Below, one piece after another: positions 11,354 to 55,922 of a stretch of DNA of 55,922 bases. The number at the start of each line of letters is the position of its first letter. Positions within the stretch are counted from its first letter, which is position 1. Under the pieces are notes generated by a model. It did not search any database, was not told where the DNA came from, and worked only from the letters and a program-made list of their open reading frames with translations. The stretch covers positions 1-55,922 of the forward strand of contig VFJZ01000025.1 of the NCBI GenBank assembly GCA_009885805.1, written 5' to 3'. The position numbers and the translations under genes are program-made. Source of the stretch: Actinomycetota bacterium (GTDB lineage Bacteria; Actinomycetota; Thermoleophilia; Gaiellales; F1-60-MAGs149).

Positions 11354-12745
11354 ATGACTGCCCATCCCTGGATGGCGAACTCGACGGACGCGGCGAAGGC
11401 GGAGATGCTCGCCGCCATCGGCGCCGGCTCCGTTGAGGAGCTCTTCGTCCAGATCCCGCCCGAGCATCGCCTCACCCGGCCGATCGACATCGGCCCGGCC
11501 CTCGTCGCCGAGCACGCGCTGCGTCGTCACCTGCTCGGCCTGCTCGACCGCAATCGCGACTGCGAGCGGAACCTGTCGTTCCTCGGCGGCGGCTGCTGGC
11601 CGCACTTCGTGCCGGCGGTCTGCGACGAGATCGCCGGCCGCTACGAGTTCGTCACCTCCGTCTGGGGAACGCCGGCTTCCGACAAGGGGCGCAGCCAGGC
11701 GTGGTTCGAGTTCTGCAGCCTGATCGCCGAGCTGGTCGAGCTCGACTTCGTCGGGCTCCCCGTCTACAGCTGGGGCGCCGCCGGCGGGCACGCCGTGCGG
11801 ATGGCCGCCCGTCTGACGGGCCGCCGCGAGGTGCTGCACCCGGCGACGATGGATCCCGAACGGCTCGGCGTCCTTCGCACCTACTGCGAGCCGCCGCGCT
11901 CCCCCGGCCACATCGCGCTCGTGCCGATCCCGGCGGGCCCCGACGGCCGCATCGACCTCGCGGCGCTCGAGGCGCACCTCTCCGAGCGGACGGCCGCGGT
12001 CTACCTGGACAACCCAGGCTATCTCGGGATCATCGAGACCGACGGCGCGGCGATCGCGGAGGCGGCCCACGCCCACGGTGCCGAGTTCGTCGTCGGCGTC
12101 GATCCGATCTCGCTCGGCGTGCTCGCCTCGCCGGCCTCGTACGGCGCCGACATCGTCGTCGGCTCCCTGCAGCCGCTCGGCGTCCACATGAGCTGCGGCG
12201 GTGGCGCGGGCGGCTTCATCGCGACCCGCGACGAGGAGCGGTACGCCCGCCAGTACCCGACGCTCTGCCTATCGATCTACCCGACCTCGGAGCCCGGCGA
12301 GCACGGGTACGGCCTCGCCCTGTTCGAGCAGTCGTCGTACGGCTCGCGCGAGGAGGGCAAGGACTGGACGGGGAACTCCGTCTACCTCTGGGCGACGGTC
12401 GCCGCCACGTACCTGAGCCTGGTCGGGCCCGACGGGCTGCGCGAGGTCGGCGAGGTCTGCCTGACCCGGAGCCACGAGGCGGCGGCGCGCCTCGCGCGCA
12501 TCCCCGGCGTCGACATCCGCCATCCGGACGGGTTCTTCAAGGAGATCGTCGTCGGCTTCGACGGTACCGGCCGGACGATCGCCGAGATCAATCGCGGTCT
12601 GCTCGCGCACGGCATCTTCGGCGGCCTCGATCTGTCGGCGACGTTCCCCGCGCTCGGCCAGAGCGCGCTCTATTGCTTCACCGAGGTGCACGAACCGGAC
12701 GACATCGAGCGTCTCGCCACCGCCATCGAGGAGGTGACGTCGTGA
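11354..12745 (+). CDS. Glycine-decarboxylase subunit 1 homologue (GcvPA-like), divergent
   Basis: 463 aa, the length of GcvPA, with fold-type I aminotransferase character and family blocks such as LSFLGGGCWPHFVPAV and CGGGAGGFIATRDEER. In true P-protein the region after this block reads [13 protein letters not shown], which the canonical GcvP at 14967-17837 keeps. Here it is SVWGTPASDKGRSQ. The usual glycine-pocket motif is therefore replaced. This subunit normally lacks the PLP lysine and pairs with GcvPB, which follows with a GTGA overlap. I infer a PLP-dependent decarboxylase-like heteromer acting on something other than plain glycine, or with a changed partner. No gcvH, gcvT or lpd gene is in the window. 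Confidence 0.85.
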   Translation: MTAHPWMANSTDAAKAEMLAAIGAGSVEELFVQIPPEHRLTRPIDIGPALVAEHALRRHLLGLLDRNRDCERNLSFLGGGCWPHFVPAVCDEIAGRYEFVTSVWGTPASDKGRSQAWFEFCSLIAELVELDFVGLPVYSWGAAGGHAVRMAARLTGRREVLHPATMDPERLGVLRTYCEPPRSPGHIALVPIPAGPDGRIDLAALEAHLSERTAAVYLDNPGYLGIIETDGAAIAEAAHAHGAEFVVGVDPISLGVLASPASYGADIVVGSLQPLGVHMSCGGGAGGFIATRDEERYARQYPTLCLSIYPTSEPGEHGYGLALFEQSSYGSREEGKDWTGNSVYLWATVAATYLSLVGPDGLREVGEVCLTRSHEAAARLARIPGVDIRHPDGFFKEIVVGFDGTGRTIAEINRGLLAHGIFGGLDLSATFPALGQSALYCFTEVHEPDDIERLATAIEEVTS

Positions 12746-14540: not shown

Positions 14541-14970
14541 CGGCAGGGCGTTCTTCGATACGAACGTCCTCGTGTACGCGTACGACGCGCTGGCGGGCGG
14601 GAAGCGTGACCGGGCCCACGCGCTGGCGGCGGCGTTCTGGGACGGCCGCGGCACCCTCTCCTTGCAGGTCCTCCAGGAGCTCTACGTCACGCTGACGCAA
14701 AAGCTGCGATCGCCGCTCGAGCCGTCCGTCGCCTCCGGGATCGTTGGCGACCTCACGACCTGGATGGTCTACGCGCCGGCGAGCGCCGACGTCCTCGCGG
14801 CGATCTCGCTCCATCGCGAACACGGTCTATCGTTCTGGGATGCGATGATCGTCCACGCCGCGTTGCAGACGGGATGCGCCGTCCTGTACAGCGAGGATCT
14901 CCAGCACGGCCGCCGCTTCGGCGGTCTCGAAATCGTTAACCCGTTCGCCGATCGCCAGGAGCAGACGTGA
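14521..14970 (+). CDS. PIN-domain ribonuclease toxin (VapC-like)
   Basis: 149 aa. PIN-domain acidic residues are all visible: [12 protein letters not shown] (first Asp), [11 protein letters not shown] (Glu), [12 protein letters not shown] (Asp), LYSEDLQHG (Asp). These bind Mg/Mn in the RNase active site of VapC toxins. It starts at ATG 14521 inside the antitoxin gene. Its stop overlaps the GTG of the full-length glycine decarboxylase gene by four bases, which couples translation of gcvP to that of the toxin. That is unusual for a toxin-antitoxin pair, which normally forms a self-contained unit. Confidence 0.88.
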
Positions 14971-17837
14971 TCCAGACGCTCGCCGAGCTCGAGCTCGCCA
15001 TCCCATTCACCCGCCGGCACATCGGGCCTTCCCCCGACGACCAGACGGCGATGCTGGCGCTCCTCGGCCACGCGAGCCTCGACGACCTCGCGGCGGCTGC
15101 CGTGCCGGAGTCGATCATCCTCTCCAAGCCGCTCGACGTGCCTGCCGCGCTGCCGGAGATCGACGTCCTCGGCGCGCTGCGGGAGATCGCCGACCGCAAC
15201 CGCGTGATGACGTCGATGATCGGGCTCGGCTACTACGGGACGCACACGCCGCAGGTCGTCCTGCGGAAGGTGCTCGAGAACCCGGCCTGGTACACGGCCT
15301 ACACGCCGTACCAGCCGGAGATCTCGCAGGGCCGGCTGGAGGCGCTCCTCAACTACCAGACGATGGTCGCCGACCTCACCGGGCTGCCCGTGGCGAACGC
15401 ATCGATGCTCGACGAGTCGACCGCCGCGGCAGAGGCGATGACCGTCGCGCGGCGCGTGTCGAAGGCATCGTCGATGCGGTTCGTCGTCGACGCGGACGCG
15501 CTGCCGCAGACGATCGCGGTGATCTCCACGCGCGCGGAGCCGCTCGGCATCGAGGTTGTCGTCGCCGACCTGTCCGCGGGACTGCCCGATGGCGACCTGT
15601 TCGGCGTCCTCGTCCAGTACCCGGGCGCGTCGGGGCGTGTCGCGGACCCGCGCGGCGTGATCGAGGCCGCGCACGAGCGGGGCGCCGTCGCCGCCGTGGC
15701 GGCCGATCTGCTCGCCCTCGTGCTCCTGCAGCCGCCGGGTGAGATGGGTGCTGACGTCGTCGTCGGCTCGTCGCAGCGCTTCGGCGTCCCGATCGGCTAC
15801 GGCGGTCCCCACGCCGGCTACATGGCCGTCCGGCAGGGCCTCGAGCGGGCGATGCCGGGCCGGCTCGTCGGCGTCTCGATCGACGCCGACGGCGCGCCTG
15901 CGCTGCGGCTCGCGTTGCAGACGCGCGAGCAGCACATCCGCCGCGAGAAGGCGACCTCGAACATCTGCACGGCGCAGGTCCTGCTCGCCGTGATGGCGTC
16001 GATGTACGCCGTCTACCACGGCCGCGAGGGGCTCGAGTTGATCGCCCGGCGCGTGCACCGGATGACCGCGATCCTCGCCGAGGGCCTGCGCCGCGGCGGC
16101 CTGACGGTGGTGCACGACCACTTCTTCGACACCATCCAGGTGCGGGTGCCGTTCCACGCCGACGCCGTGCTCGCGGCGGCGCGCCAGCGCGGCATCAACC
16201 TGCGCCGGGTCGACGCCGACACCGTCGGCATTTCCTGCGACGAGGTGACCGAGCGGCCGCAGATCGAGGGCGTCTGGGCCTCCTTCCGCGTGCACGCCTC
16301 GATCGACGAGCTGGACTTCTCCACGCACGACGCGCTGCCCTCCGCGCTCGTGCGGACGTCGCCGTTCCTGACGCACCCGGTGTTCTCCCAGTACCGGTCG
16401 GAGACGCAGCTGCTGCGCTACCTCCGCCGGCTCTCCGGGCGCGACGTCGCGCTCGACCGGTCGATGATCCCGCTCGGCTCCTGCACGATGAAGCTGAACG
16501 CGACGACCGAGATGCAGGCGGTGACGTGGCCGGAGTTCGCCTCGATCCATCCGTTCGCTCCGCTCGACCAGGCCGATGGCTACCTCACGCTGATCACCGA
16601 TCTCGAACGCTGGCTCGTCGCGATCACCGGCTACGACGCCGTCTCGCTGCAGCCGAACGCGGGGTCGCAGGGCGAACTGGCAGGCCTGCTCGCGATCCGC
16701 GGCTATCACCGCGCGAACGGCGATCACGACCGCGACGTCTGCCTGATTCCGTCGAGCGCCCACGGCACGAACGCTGCCAGCGCGGTGATGGCGGGTATGC
16801 GCGTCGTCGTCATCGCGACCGACGAGCACGGCAACGTCGACATGAACGATCTCGAGGCCCGCGTCGACGAGCACGCCGAGCAGTTGGCGGCGCTGATGAT
16901 CACCTACCCGTCGACGTTCGGCGTGTACGAGGAGACCGTCGGCGACATCTGCGAGATCGTCCACGCCGCCGGCGGCCAGGTGTACGTGGACGGCGCGAAC
17001 ATGAACGCCCTCGTTGGGCTCGCCCAGCCCGGCAAGTTCGGCGCGGACGTCTCGCACCTGAACCTGCACAAGACATTCTGCATTCCGCATGGCGGTGGCG
17101 GCCCCGGCATCGGGCCGGTCGCGGTGCGCGAGCACCTGCGGCCACACCTGCCGAACCATCCGCTGCAGCCGGCCGCAGGCCCTGCATCGGGCCCGGGGCC
17201 CGTGTCGGCGGCGCCGTGGGGGTCGGCCGGGATCCTGCCGATCCCGTGGGCCTACATCCGCCTGATGGGGCCGGAGGGGCTGCGCCAGGCAACGCAGGTG
17301 GCGATCCTCAACGCCAACTACATCGCGCGGCGCCTCGCCGAGCACTACCCGGTGCTCTACACGGGGCGCAATGACCTCGTCGCGCACGAGTGCATCCTCG
17401 ACCTGCGCCCGCTGACGAAGGAGACGGGGGTGACCGTCGAGGACGTCGCGAAGCGCCTGATCGACTTCGGCTTCCACGCGCCGACGATGAGCTTCCCGGT
17501 CGCCGGCACGCTGATGGTTGAGCCGACGGAGTCGGAGGATCTGGGAGAGATCGACCGCTTCTGCGATGCCATGATCCAGATCCGCCGCGAAATCGCCCGG
17601 GTCGAGGCGGGGGAGTGGTCGAAGGAGGACAACCCGCTCCTGAACGCCCCGCACACCGCGCAGATGCTCGTCGGCGACTGGCCGCACGCCTACACGCGCG
17701 AGGAGGCCTGCTACCCCGTCGCGTCGCTATGGCAGGCGAAGTACTGGTCGCCGGTGCGCCGTGTGGATGGGCCGTACGGCGACCGCCACCTGATGTGCAC
17801 GTGCCCGCCGATCGAGGTCCTCGCTGCGGCCGACTGA
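14967..17837 (+). CDS. gcvP: Glycine dehydrogenase (decarboxylating), full-length P-protein
   Basis: 956 aa, normal for the fused P-protein. Decarboxylates glycine with PLP and loads the aminomethyl group on lipoyl H-protein. The N-terminus has the standard FTRRHIGPS block, then [10 protein letters not shown] and [13 protein letters not shown]. The second half has [30 protein letters not shown] and [19 protein letters not shown] with the PLP Lys702. All key motifs are intact. It starts at GTG 14967, overlapping the PIN toxin stop. With the folate-domain dehydrogenase at 4959-7469 it would take methylated glycine through glycine to methylene-THF, CO2 and ammonia. The H, T and L proteins must be encoded elsewhere. 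Confidence 0.97.
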
Positions 17838-53676: not shown

Positions 53677-53759
53677 GTACCTCAGCGCGATTCTCGACGG
53701 CTATCGTCAAAGTTGACGGGATTCGAGGTACGCGGAGCACACGTCGGATTCACGATAAT
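53677..53759. promoter_or_regulatory. Divergent regulatory region with nested dyads and a leaderless -10
   Basis: GTACCTC (53677-53683) and GAGGTAC (53725-53731) form an inverted repeat around a 14-base palindrome CGTCAA-AG-TTGACG (53705-53718), whose arms read TTGACG outward on both strands. GATAAT (53754-53759) ends 6 bases before ATG 53766 of the enoyl-CoA hydratase, a leaderless promoter. The remainder of 53591-53676 is G-rich with no clear signal for the oxidase gene. Confidence 0.5.
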
Positions 53760-53765
53760 CGGGCG

Positions 53766-54443
53766 ATGACGCCGATCCGCACCATCAGGCACGACGCCGT
53801 CCTCGAGATCGTCCTCGACCGGCCGCCGGTCAACGCCGTCGACCAGACGCTCGCCGACGGCCTCTACGCGGCGTTCACGACCCTGCGGGATGACGACGCC
53901 CTCGGCGCGGGCGTCCTGATCGGCGCCGGGCATCGCGCCTTCTCGGCCGGCTGGGATCTGAAGGCGGCGGCCACCGGCGGCGCGAACGTCGGCTGGACGC
54001 CCGGCGGCTGGGCCGGCTTCACCCAACTCTGGGACCTCGACAAGCCGGTCGTCGCGGCAGTGGACGGCCCGGCCGTCGCCGGCGGGTTCGAGATCGCGCT
54101 CGGCTGCGACCTGATCGTCGCGGCGGAGCACGTCGAGTTCTGGCTGACCGAGGTCGGCCTCGGCATCCTGCCGTCGGCCGGGGCGCTGCAGTGGCTGCCG
54201 CGGAAGGTCGGGCTCGCGCTCGCGAGCGACCTGATCCTCACCGGCCGCCACCTGACGGCGCAGGAGGCGAAGCAGCACGGGCTCGTGCGCGACGTCGTCC
54301 CGGCCGCCGACCTGCGTGCGCACGCCCTGGCTCTCGCCGCGGAACTCGCCGCGAAGCCGGCCGAGACCGTGCGCGCCGTCAAGCGCATCCTCCGCGAGAC
54401 GGCCCACCTCCCGGTGGCGGAGACGTTCACCCCGCGCGGGTGA
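53766..54443 (+). CDS. Enoyl-CoA hydratase/isomerase family protein, short
   Basis: 225 aa, shorter than the usual 255-265. Crotonase fold: LEIVLDRPPVNAVD, the oxyanion-hole block RAFSAGWDLKAAA, KPVVAAVDGPAVAGGFEIALGCD, and ACT-like FWLTEVGLGILPSAGALQWLPR where the first catalytic-position Glu is kept (TEVGLG). The normal C-terminal helical tail is cut after ETAHLPVAETFTPRG, close to the overlap with the selenoprotein gene on the other strand (17 bases). Acts on an acyl-CoA. Activity is likely but the oligomer contacts made by the tail may be changed. Confidence 0.88.
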   Translation: MTPIRTIRHDAVLEIVLDRPPVNAVDQTLADGLYAAFTTLRDDDALGAGVLIGAGHRAFSAGWDLKAAATGGANVGWTPGGWAGFTQLWDLDKPVVAAVDGPAVAGGFEIALGCDLIVAAEHVEFWLTEVGLGILPSAGALQWLPRKVGLALASDLILTGRHLTAQEAKQHGLVRDVVPAADLRAHALALAAELAAKPAETVRAVKRILRETAHLPVAETFTPRG

Positions 54444-54948
54444 CCGCCCGCACGATCGCGTCGAACGCGCCGTCGGCGTAGGCGCGCACCTCGGCGTCCG
54501 TGCGGTCCTGGATCGGATGCGGCACGAAGACGCGGGCGACGGGCGTCCCGAGCGCCACGGCCTGCACCTCGGCGGCCTCGACGAACCCCTCCGAGCAGAC
54601 GACGACCGAGGCGACGCCGCGCGCCTCGAGGTCGGCGATGTCGTGCACACTGCACGACGTGCAGCTGCCTCAATCGGCGAGCGCCTGGATCACGACCGTG
54701 TTGTGCGTCGCGATCTCGTGGCGCAGATCGGCCGGCGCCGGCCGCGCGAACGTCGGCTTCGTGTAGCGCGTCACCGATGCGCCCGCCGCGCTCGTCAGTT
54801 CGGCGATCCGGTCGCAGAAGACGTCGCCGCGCGCCTTCGAGATGTCGACGATGGCGACCATCTCGCCGGCGAGATGGTCGGGACGGACGGCGAGCGGGCG
54901 CGTCACGCCCGACCGCTCCGCGGTCGGATCCAGGATCACGATTCCCAT
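54427..54948 (-). CDS. UGSC-family selenoprotein (in-frame TGA read as selenocysteine)
   Basis: 173 aa if TGA 54670-54672 is decoded as Sec. The 92 codons before it (MGIVILDPTAERSG to VVIQALAD) and the codons after it are in the same frame. The joint reads LAD-U-GSCTSCSVHD, with Sec93, Cys96 and Cys99, exactly the motif that gives the UGSC family its name. Cys homologues read CGSCT (family knowledge). Twelve bases after the TGA a 19-base hairpin serves as a candidate SECIS. ATG 54948 has GGGAGG about 7 bases upstream. Without Sec, the product would be split into a 92-aa fragment and an untranslated remainder. Probably a thiol/selenol redox protein. Precise role unknown. Confidence 0.9.
54640..54658 (-). 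promoter_or_regulatory. Candidate bacterial SECIS element
   Basis: On the minus strand GTCGTGCA-GTG-TGCACGAC gives an 8-base stem with a 3-base loop (or 7 pairs with loop AGUGU). It begins 12 bases after the TGA, so the apical loop is about 19 bases downstream and starts with AG/GU. These values fall in the range described for bacterial SECIS elements recognised by SelB. Confidence 0.72.
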
Positions 54949-55862
54949 GGGCTGACCTCCCGATGCACTGAGTGGCTGAGCCCGGTGGCCCAGCCGTTGA
55001 TGACTGCGGTGAAGAGACCGGCCCGCCCGCCGGCGTGCGTGACGACGACCTCGCCCGGGTGGGCGAGCGCGGCCACGAGATCGACCCGCGTCCAGCCGGC
55101 CTCGTGGAACAGCCGCGCGTGGTCGGGTGCGACGACGAGCAGCGCGTCGACGCCCGGGGTGAGGCGGCTGCGGATCGTCGCCGCGAGCGCCTCGGCGGTG
55201 CGGGCGGCCTGGTCGGTGATCGTCTGCGATCCCTCGCCGGCGAACACCGTCACGGCCGAGCGGCCGTCGCCCGCGAGCGGCCCGAACGGCGAGTCCGTCT
55301 CGTCCTCGGCGAAGCAGAACCCGACCTTGCCGGGATTGCCATGGGTCGCGCGGTCGACGCCGCCGGGGCGGCAGCCGCCGATGTTGCGACCGACGAGCTG
55401 GACGGCCCGGCCGATCGACAGCGCCGCCCTGTTCCCCTGCCCGAGGACGTTGCCGCCGCTCGCGACCCCGATGCGCGCGGCGACCGGTCCGTTGACGATC
55501 ACGATCGGCGAGACGGCCATCGTCGTCGCCATCAGGCCGTGCCAGTTGAAGGCGTCGTCGCAGCAGGCTTCGACGGCGGCGAGGACGACCGGTAGATGCT
55601 CCGGCAGGCAGCCGGCGAGCACCGCGTTGATCGCGACCTTCTCCACCGTTGCCGGCTGGAGGTCGGGCGGCACGACGCCGACGGTCTCGTCGGGTCGGCG
55701 GCCCGTGCCGGTCAGGAGCCTCAGGACGCGCTCGGGCGTCGGCGGTACGACCGGCAGGCCGTCGGTCACACCCCGCCCGTGCAGGGCCTCGACGGGATCC
55801 TCGTCGGCACCGAACTCGATTCGGCGGCTGCGCAGCCCGTGGCCGTCGTAGCGCGCCCGCAA
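54936..55862 (-). CDS. Conserved partner of the UGSC selenoprotein
   Basis: About 308 aa if the TTG at 55862 is used. The frame stays open to a stop near 55900, so the start is uncertain. I recognise a conserved family encoded beside UGSC proteins but cannot give it a function. Landmarks are DGLPVVPPTPERV, PATVEKVAINAVLAGCLPEHLPVV, VNGPVAARIGVASGGNVLGQGNRA, IGRAVQLVGRNIGGCRPGGVD and VVTHAGGRAGLF (short separate blocks). Cys residues in LAGCLP, EACCDD and GGCRPG could be redox active. Overlaps the selenoprotein gene by 13 bases, indicating co-expression. Soluble, no signal peptide. The last 60 bases of the window hold nothing further I can support. Confidence 0.75.
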   Translation of the reverse strand: MRARYDGHGLRSRRIEFGADEDPVEALHGRGVTDGLPVVPPTPERVLRLLTGTGRRPDETVGVVPPDLQPATVEKVAINAVLAGCLPEHLPVVLAAVEACCDDAFNWHGLMATTMAVSPIVIVNGPVAARIGVASGGNVLGQGNRAALSIGRAVQLVGRNIGGCRPGGVDRATHGNPGKVGFCFAEDETDSPFGPLAGDGRSAVTVFAGEGSQTITDQAARTAEALAATIRSRLTPGVDALLVVAPDHARLFHEAGWTRVDLVAALAHPGEVVVTHAGGRAGLFTAVINGWATGLSHSVHREVSPWES

Positions 55863-55922
55863 CTCGTCGACCCGCCCGGGGTCGGCAGAGAGCGAGCTTC
55901 AGCCAGGTTTGGACGGCGGCAG

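Follow-up and report, generated by a model that had tools for sequence, protein, structure and literature searches.

A UGSC family selenoprotein gene and its linked thioredoxin-domain partner: a probable two-protein redox selenoenzyme with a second selenocysteine site

Gene arrangement at the locus

Contig VFJZ01000025.1 of an Actinomycetota bacterium (assembly GCA_009885805.1), 55,922 nucleotides (nt) in length and hereafter called the window, was analysed for a gene of the UGSC family encoded on its minus strand. The frame of this gene (54948..54427) was interrupted by a single TGA, a candidate selenocysteine (Sec) codon. A second gene, called here the partner, was located directly upstream and contained an in-frame TGA of its own. 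Both TGA codons were followed by hairpins, and all features are listed in Table 1. The window, which is contig C99 in its entirety, belongs to a draft genome of 3.56 Mb with a completeness of 95.21% and a contamination of 3.33%.

Table 1. Features of the UGSC locus and of the upstream partner gene in the window
Feature	Position	Strand	Details
UGSC family selenoprotein gene (predicted)	54427..54948	minus	173 amino acids, ATG at 54948, stop TGA 54427-54429
In-frame TGA, predicted Sec93, U of UGSCTSC	54670..54672	minus	codon 93 of 173
SECIS hairpin GUCGUGC-AGUGU-GCACGAC	54640..54658	minus	begins 12 nt past TGA
Partner gene, upstream of UGSC	54936..55922	minus	overlaps UGSC start by 13 nt, runs off contig
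Second in-frame TGA, proposed Sec of KPGU linker (KPG-TGA-SSLSADPGR)	55899..55901	minus	aligns with invariant Cys of [RK]PGC
SECIS-like hairpin GCCGACCC-CGGGC-GGGUCGAC	55866..55886	minus	begins 13 nt past second TGA, 7/8 pairs

When the frame was read again, the gene coordinates proposed in a first-pass annotation of the window proved exact, and the TGA fell, as had been claimed there, on the U of the UGSCTSCS motif (...VVIQALAD-U-GSCTSCSVHD...). The same annotation had held that standard gene calling would report two short open reading frames (ORFs), and the ORF list indeed contained them at 54670-54948 and 54427-54648. Residues 5-170 of the product were matched by the Pfam model PF24696 'UGSC family' (E 2.5e-40, 138.9 bits, cut-off 25), and the NCBIfam model NF041046 'UGSC family (seleno)protein' gave 140.5 bits against a cut-off of 125. 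The protein was assigned to the UGSC family, as the curated cut-offs were exceeded over the whole domain and the first residue of the motif, Sec or cysteine (Cys) in this family, was encoded by TGA.

Selenocysteine codon in UGSC relatives

The NF041046 model was searched in 399 genomes of the class to which the window belongs, 36 of which had a match and 20 a match above the cut-off. From 48 matches, 30 class loci were read, the window included; L043, which was the window fetched again, was excluded. Another set was obtained by scanning named genomes with the partner protein, the best 80 of 576 candidates being kept (the named loci). The Sec column was read through a profile alignment of the UGSC loci. 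In the class loci this column held TGA in 23 cases, a Cys codon in 6 and GCC in 1. The partner-found loci were readable in 75 of 80 cases, with TGA in 73, TAG in 2 and Cys in none. Of the 105 loci in the pooled sets, 96 had TGA at this column and 2 had TAG. Cys-containing homologues, which the first-pass annotation had expected, were thus present as 6 of the 30 class loci.

The two TAG codons were found in Blastococcus and Geodermatophilus (L047:8326 and L099:8326), and the partners of these UGSC genes retained RPGC. UAG-coded UGSC selenoproteins of Geodermatophilaceae have already been published, according to the available text of PMC5330540, which agrees with both loci.

Selenocysteine insertion signal and machinery

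The hairpin behind the UGSC TGA could be drawn with 7 pairs around a loop of 5 nt, or with 8 pairs and the loop GUG. Taken alone it was unexceptional: z values of -0.08 (53-nt stretch) and -1.63 (23 nt) were obtained, and equal pairing occurred in 22% of synonymous recodings. At 92 distinct Sec-coding sites, a mean of 6.71 of 7 stem pairs was recorded, against 4.71 in synonymous shuffles (standard deviation (sd) 0.13, maximum 5.20, 500 sets), and the full 7-pair stem was present at 69 of the 92 sites, against a mean of 7.7 in synonymous redraws; the controls were redraws of synonymous codons, and kinship among the sites was left uncorrected in these figures. No excess was observed at the 7 sites with Cys or another codon (3.86 pairs against 3.98 in shuffles). 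The stem was altered on both sides, with differing amino acids, in L013/L014, L031, L035, L036, L037/L040 and L039. The first-pass annotation had placed the selenocysteine insertion sequence (SECIS)-like hairpin correctly, and its stem is kept by compensatory change in Sec-coding genes only. Loop positions 2-3 were GU at 91 of the 92 Sec sites. The G and U of the SECIS loop matter to the SelB protein of E. coli.

Pairing in the window hairpin exceeded chance by far only once relatives were included, and on comparison of these sequences the hairpin 3' of the UGSC TGA is a SECIS. An Rfam search of the surroundings and of the whole window returned no SECIS or other family at the gathering score; a weak match to a viral element (E 1.2) was unrelated.

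The first-pass annotation had further stated that the genome should encode SelA, SelB, SelD and tRNA-Sec, and all four were found. SelA scored 508.6 bits (cut-off 267.9), SelB 300.4 bits (TIGR00475, cut-off 242.25) and SelD 359.3 bits (cut-off 125), and the tRNA-Sec had the anticodon TCA. The SelB ORF was next after selA and was cut by the end of the sequence read there; the SelB winged-helix model PF09106 gave no match. The SelD gene contained its own in-frame TGA in GGGUACK (GGG-TGA-ACK). It was concluded that the TGA at 54670-54672 is almost certainly decoded as selenocysteine, aided by the hairpin behind it.

Linkage and architecture of the partner

A partner homologue was found at 31 of 31 UGSC loci (29 from other genomes and the window twice), either upstream, downstream or fused; the fusions were L041 and L042. 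In the opposite direction, a UGSC domain was detected at 76 of the 80 named partner loci. Among the loci lacking it, L093 and L121 stopped at a contig end and L066 broke off in a probable UGSC start (E 0.23, a weak match). A search of the phylum with full-length partners gave matches in 28 of 396 genomes, and UGSC adjoined the partner in 27 of the 29 loci examined (23 TGA, 3 Cys and 1 Met). Based on this strict linkage and on the natural fusions, it was proposed that the two proteins constitute one redox enzyme; UGSC and its partner are likely to act together. The genes, their linkage and the RNA signal can be read from the sequence, and a complex of the two proteins would be in keeping with them.

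In a full-length partner, a thioredoxin domain with a CxxC motif of the CPTC type was joined through a [RK]PG[C/U] linker to an unnamed core. The window copy started at the linker, its thioredoxin domain being lost beyond the end of contig C99. Cys118 of the linker and Cys215 of the core were invariant in 38 partner sequences, when TGA was counted as Cys. In the predicted model of L116, residues 1-104 adopted the thioredoxin fold (Z 10.5, root mean square deviation (rmsd) 2.1, 90 residues aligned), and partner relatives were assigned a thioredoxin domain, CxxC included. This domain was the only fold among the matches listed for the partner model. No Pfam or NCBIfam model matched the partner protein, and the sequence search against the PDB gave no relative (core best E 0.064, nothing useful).

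Second TGA in the partner

Upstream of the TGA that at first sight closes it, the partner frame remained open (LPPSKPG-TGA-SSLSADPGR). The genome contained another partner copy, 85% identical, where contig C27 ends; it carried this TGA too, and the thioredoxin domain before it was complete. This copy (L148:1-414, that is G000:C27:1-414) corresponded to window positions 55509-55922 at 85% identity, the two sequences being identical over long stretches where the contigs break off. A single UGSC gene was found in the genome despite the two partner copies. Since contigs C99 and C27 end in shared stretches and UGSC is single, the copies are perhaps strain variants of one locus, or they may represent a duplicate that broke the assembly.

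The in-frame stops of 78 partner genes were counted over the thioredoxin domain, linker and core (30,885 codons). Four were found, all of them TGA and all at the linker Cys: L062 and L116 of Acidimicrobiaceae, and L118 and L119 of Betaproteobacteria. All named loci except L050 and L076, which did not fit the motif, were scanned (78 of 80), and the motif required Cys or TGA at the linker column, so that TAA or TAG there would be missed and stops elsewhere were detectable. SelA was encoded in all four genomes. Upstream as well as downstream of the TGA, synonymous changes per site exceeded the others in the pairs L062/L116 and L118/L119, and in the comparison of the window with C27 they did so downstream; purifying selection appears to flank the second TGA. 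In a tree of 86 partners, five rows carried Sec and 3 changes were needed to account for them (bootstrap range 3 to 3), the window row being partial and placed on a long branch. No further KPGU case was found among the 396 phylum genomes besides the genome of the window.

A stem around CGGGC or CGGGGU was present at equal distance at six of six TGA sites (the window, C27 and four others). These sites had 7.17 of 8 pairs against 5.39 in shuffles (sd 0.39, maximum 6.50, 400 sets), and 88 partner Cys sites had 4.17 pairs against 3.95, with stem positions picked from the Sec sites, a choice that favours the latter. A freer hairpin search comparing Sec with Cys sites pointed in the same direction (Mann-Whitney p 0.005, kinship uncorrected).

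Neighbouring genes

Near the pair, selA-like genes were observed in 9 of the 80 named loci (L049, L052-L054, L063, L064, L095, L105 and L111) and selB in 8 of 80. The other neighbours included metallo-beta-lactamase fold proteins (12 loci), flavin reductase (10), acyl-CoA dehydrogenase (10) and thiolase (7), and no shared pathway emerged among the neighbour genes of the 80 loci. All neighbour clusters, selA and selB included, were named by eye. In the window, a convergent enoyl-CoA hydratase-like gene (53751-54443, plus strand) overlapped the UGSC gene at their 3' ends. Two glycine dehydrogenase genes were located on the plus strand a few kb apart, encoding a GcvPA-type subunit (11354-12745) and a full-length GcvP (14967-17837).

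Fold of UGSC and proposed mechanism

The predicted model of the UGSC protein (predicted local distance difference test (pLDDT) 94) comprised five alternating strand-helix units and was Rossmann-like. In this model Sec93 was positioned directly before helix 94-109, which contained Cys96 and Cys99. Comparison with the PDB pointed unspecifically to folds of the flavodoxin or receiver-domain sort; the best Foldseek match had E 1.5e-4 and a template modelling (TM) score of 0.49, and the best Z of 11.7 (rmsd 3.3 over 133 aligned residues) was shared with a designed protein. No thioredoxin was present among the matches listed for the UGSC fold, although an unlisted family is still possible.

A thioredoxin-like fold had been guessed for UGSC in 2008 (PMC2398784, available text), and the predicted model does not seem to bear this guess out. 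Under that proposal, UGSC would be an ordinary thioredoxin-like thiol oxidoreductase and the partner merely its reductase. The UxxC motif is consistent with such a role; however, the predicted fold of UGSC is flavodoxin- or receiver-like, and it is the partner that carries the thioredoxin domain. An ordinary thiol oxidoreductase was therefore considered unlikely.

A relation to the selenoprotein GrdB of glycine reductase was suggested by profile comparisons. At E up to 1, TIGR01917 (GrdB) was matched by 33 of 46 UGSC proteins, the best E being 3.3e-6. The window protein gave 14.7 bits, far under the cut-off of 602.2, and was not classified as GrdB/PrdB. A GrdB-like profile was assembled from 11 proteins of the phylum of the window with TGA in the UGTGTR motif; when the UGSC profile was aligned to it (E 0.0018), the Sec residues of the two coincided within a stretch of 83 columns. 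GrdB-like genes matching PF07355 occur in this phylum (L178-L190), and the in-frame TGA in UGTGTR was observed at 13 of 13 loci read. The UGSC domain may have a distant kinship with the Sec domain of GrdB, and because of this possible relation reductive cleavage was taken as the best guess for the chemistry.

We proposed that the partner core would bind the substrate, which would be attacked by Sec93 of UGSC, a residue close to Cys96 and Cys99. Once oxidised, the UxxC centre would be reduced by the partner, with electrons passing from the CPTC pair to the linker Cys or Sec and further to UGSC. This electron path, as drawn, is speculative and rather doubtful. The remainder of the explanation, that is, a two-protein redox selenoenzyme with two Sec sites, is a reasonably probable one.

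Evaluation of the alternatives

Several observations weighed against the two-site selenoenzyme. The Sec position was occupied by Met in L174 and by Ala in L041. Partner locus L065, which has room for UGSC, contained an unrelated gene next to the partner and no UGSC, and distant partners were found without the thioredoxin domain and linker. The second Sec of the window lies only 7 codons from the contig end. The second hairpin of the window alone was no better than shuffles, the hairpin of L116 was poor (P 0.31), and single hairpins were mostly unexceptional against shuffles; for this reason the hairpin support for the second Sec is moderate. The link to GrdB was weak (hhalign probability 14.7%), the partner showed no similarity to GrdB by profile, and the electron path is an inference.

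The second TGA (55899-55901) could be a genuine stop codon, or an artefact arising where the contig ends, in which case the partner would start at TTG 55862 and be devoid of a thioredoxin domain. The location at the contig edge, the occurrence of TGA in merely 5 of 86 tree rows and the distant partners lacking this domain agree with such an interpretation. However, the C27 copy carries the same TGA behind a complete upstream thioredoxin domain, and TGA is found at the same residue in four other genomes, which makes a stop or artefact improbable. The linker residue of the partner is very likely selenocysteine in the genome of the window.

As for the UGSC gene, the TGA at 54670-54672 is a standard stop codon and the lone hairpin of the window is unremarkable, as would be expected if translation truly ended there, if the codon were a sequencing error or if the gene had decayed, with two unrelated short ORFs as the result; against this stand the pooled TGA and TAG counts, stem compensation limited to Sec-coding loci and the full Sec machinery of the genome, and the idea can be practically discarded. 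A changed code in which both TGAs specify another amino acid found no support and is hardly conceivable, since TGA also terminates both genes and the tRNA with the TCA anticodon is tRNA-Sec.

Comparison with known systems

UGSC is already known as a selenoprotein, and the UGSC gene by itself adds one more member to an established family; the new part is the upstream partner, its linkage and its proposed Sec. The first-pass annotation was right about Sec in UGSC and overlooked both the earlier listing of the family as selenoproteins and the second TGA upstream. No description of the strict UGSC-partner link or of the partner's own Sec was found in the literature searched. The 2008 survey of UGSC proteins was reportedly the work of Zhang and Gladyshev. 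In the available text of that ocean survey, 255 Sec-containing and 21 Cys-containing UGSC proteins were listed, and few selenoproteins were as abundant as UGSC in data from the ocean and from fresh water (PMC2398784). A 2026 review, in the part available, enters UGSC under NF041046 and describes such proteins as largely uncharacterized in function (PMC13188914).

We tentatively suggest that the partner may be an unreported selenoprotein family, in which the linker Cys was changed to Sec in at least three lineages, and that together with UGSC it may make up a new two-protein selenoenzyme, widespread and akin to the Sec domain of GrdB, that occurs in many phyla beyond the amino-acid-fermenting anaerobes. 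The strictly linked partner with its thioredoxin domain would be the likely electron donor and second subunit for UGSC. As the partner has been identified, UGSC activity can be sought with both proteins present. The switch from Cys to Sec in several lineages makes the partner a candidate selenoprotein family, cut at the TGA by ordinary gene calling.

The UGSC protein of the window itself showed no differences from NF041046/PF24696, being alike in the whole-length match, the Sec motif, the SECIS and the Sec-using genome. The VPGUxxT family NF041383, named in the available part of PMC13188914, is thioredoxin-like with a PGU motif, as is the partner; no match of NF041383 to the 38 partner proteins was obtained at E up to 1. 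No RPGU or KPGU selenoprotein was found in the table of PMC13188914, as far as it was available, in NCBIfam or by text search, most subscription papers being outside its scope. The available text of PMC2398784 describes a UGSC/Unknown_1 fusion, where UGSC is joined to an unnamed conserved domain with a conserved Cys and no mention of Sec; L041 and L042 may be the same fusion, and Unknown_1 may be the partner core.

Compared with GrdB/PrdB (PF07355, TIGR01917, TIGR04483), UGSC has no counterpart to the N-terminal half of GrdB, its scores are far under the cut-offs and the partner is unrelated by profile. On the other hand, UGSC resembles these proteins in the UxxC Sec centre and in the LE..GIP and P-P motifs after it. 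Glycine reductase employs thioredoxin, according to the available part of PMC13188914, and the UGSC partner has a thioredoxin domain.
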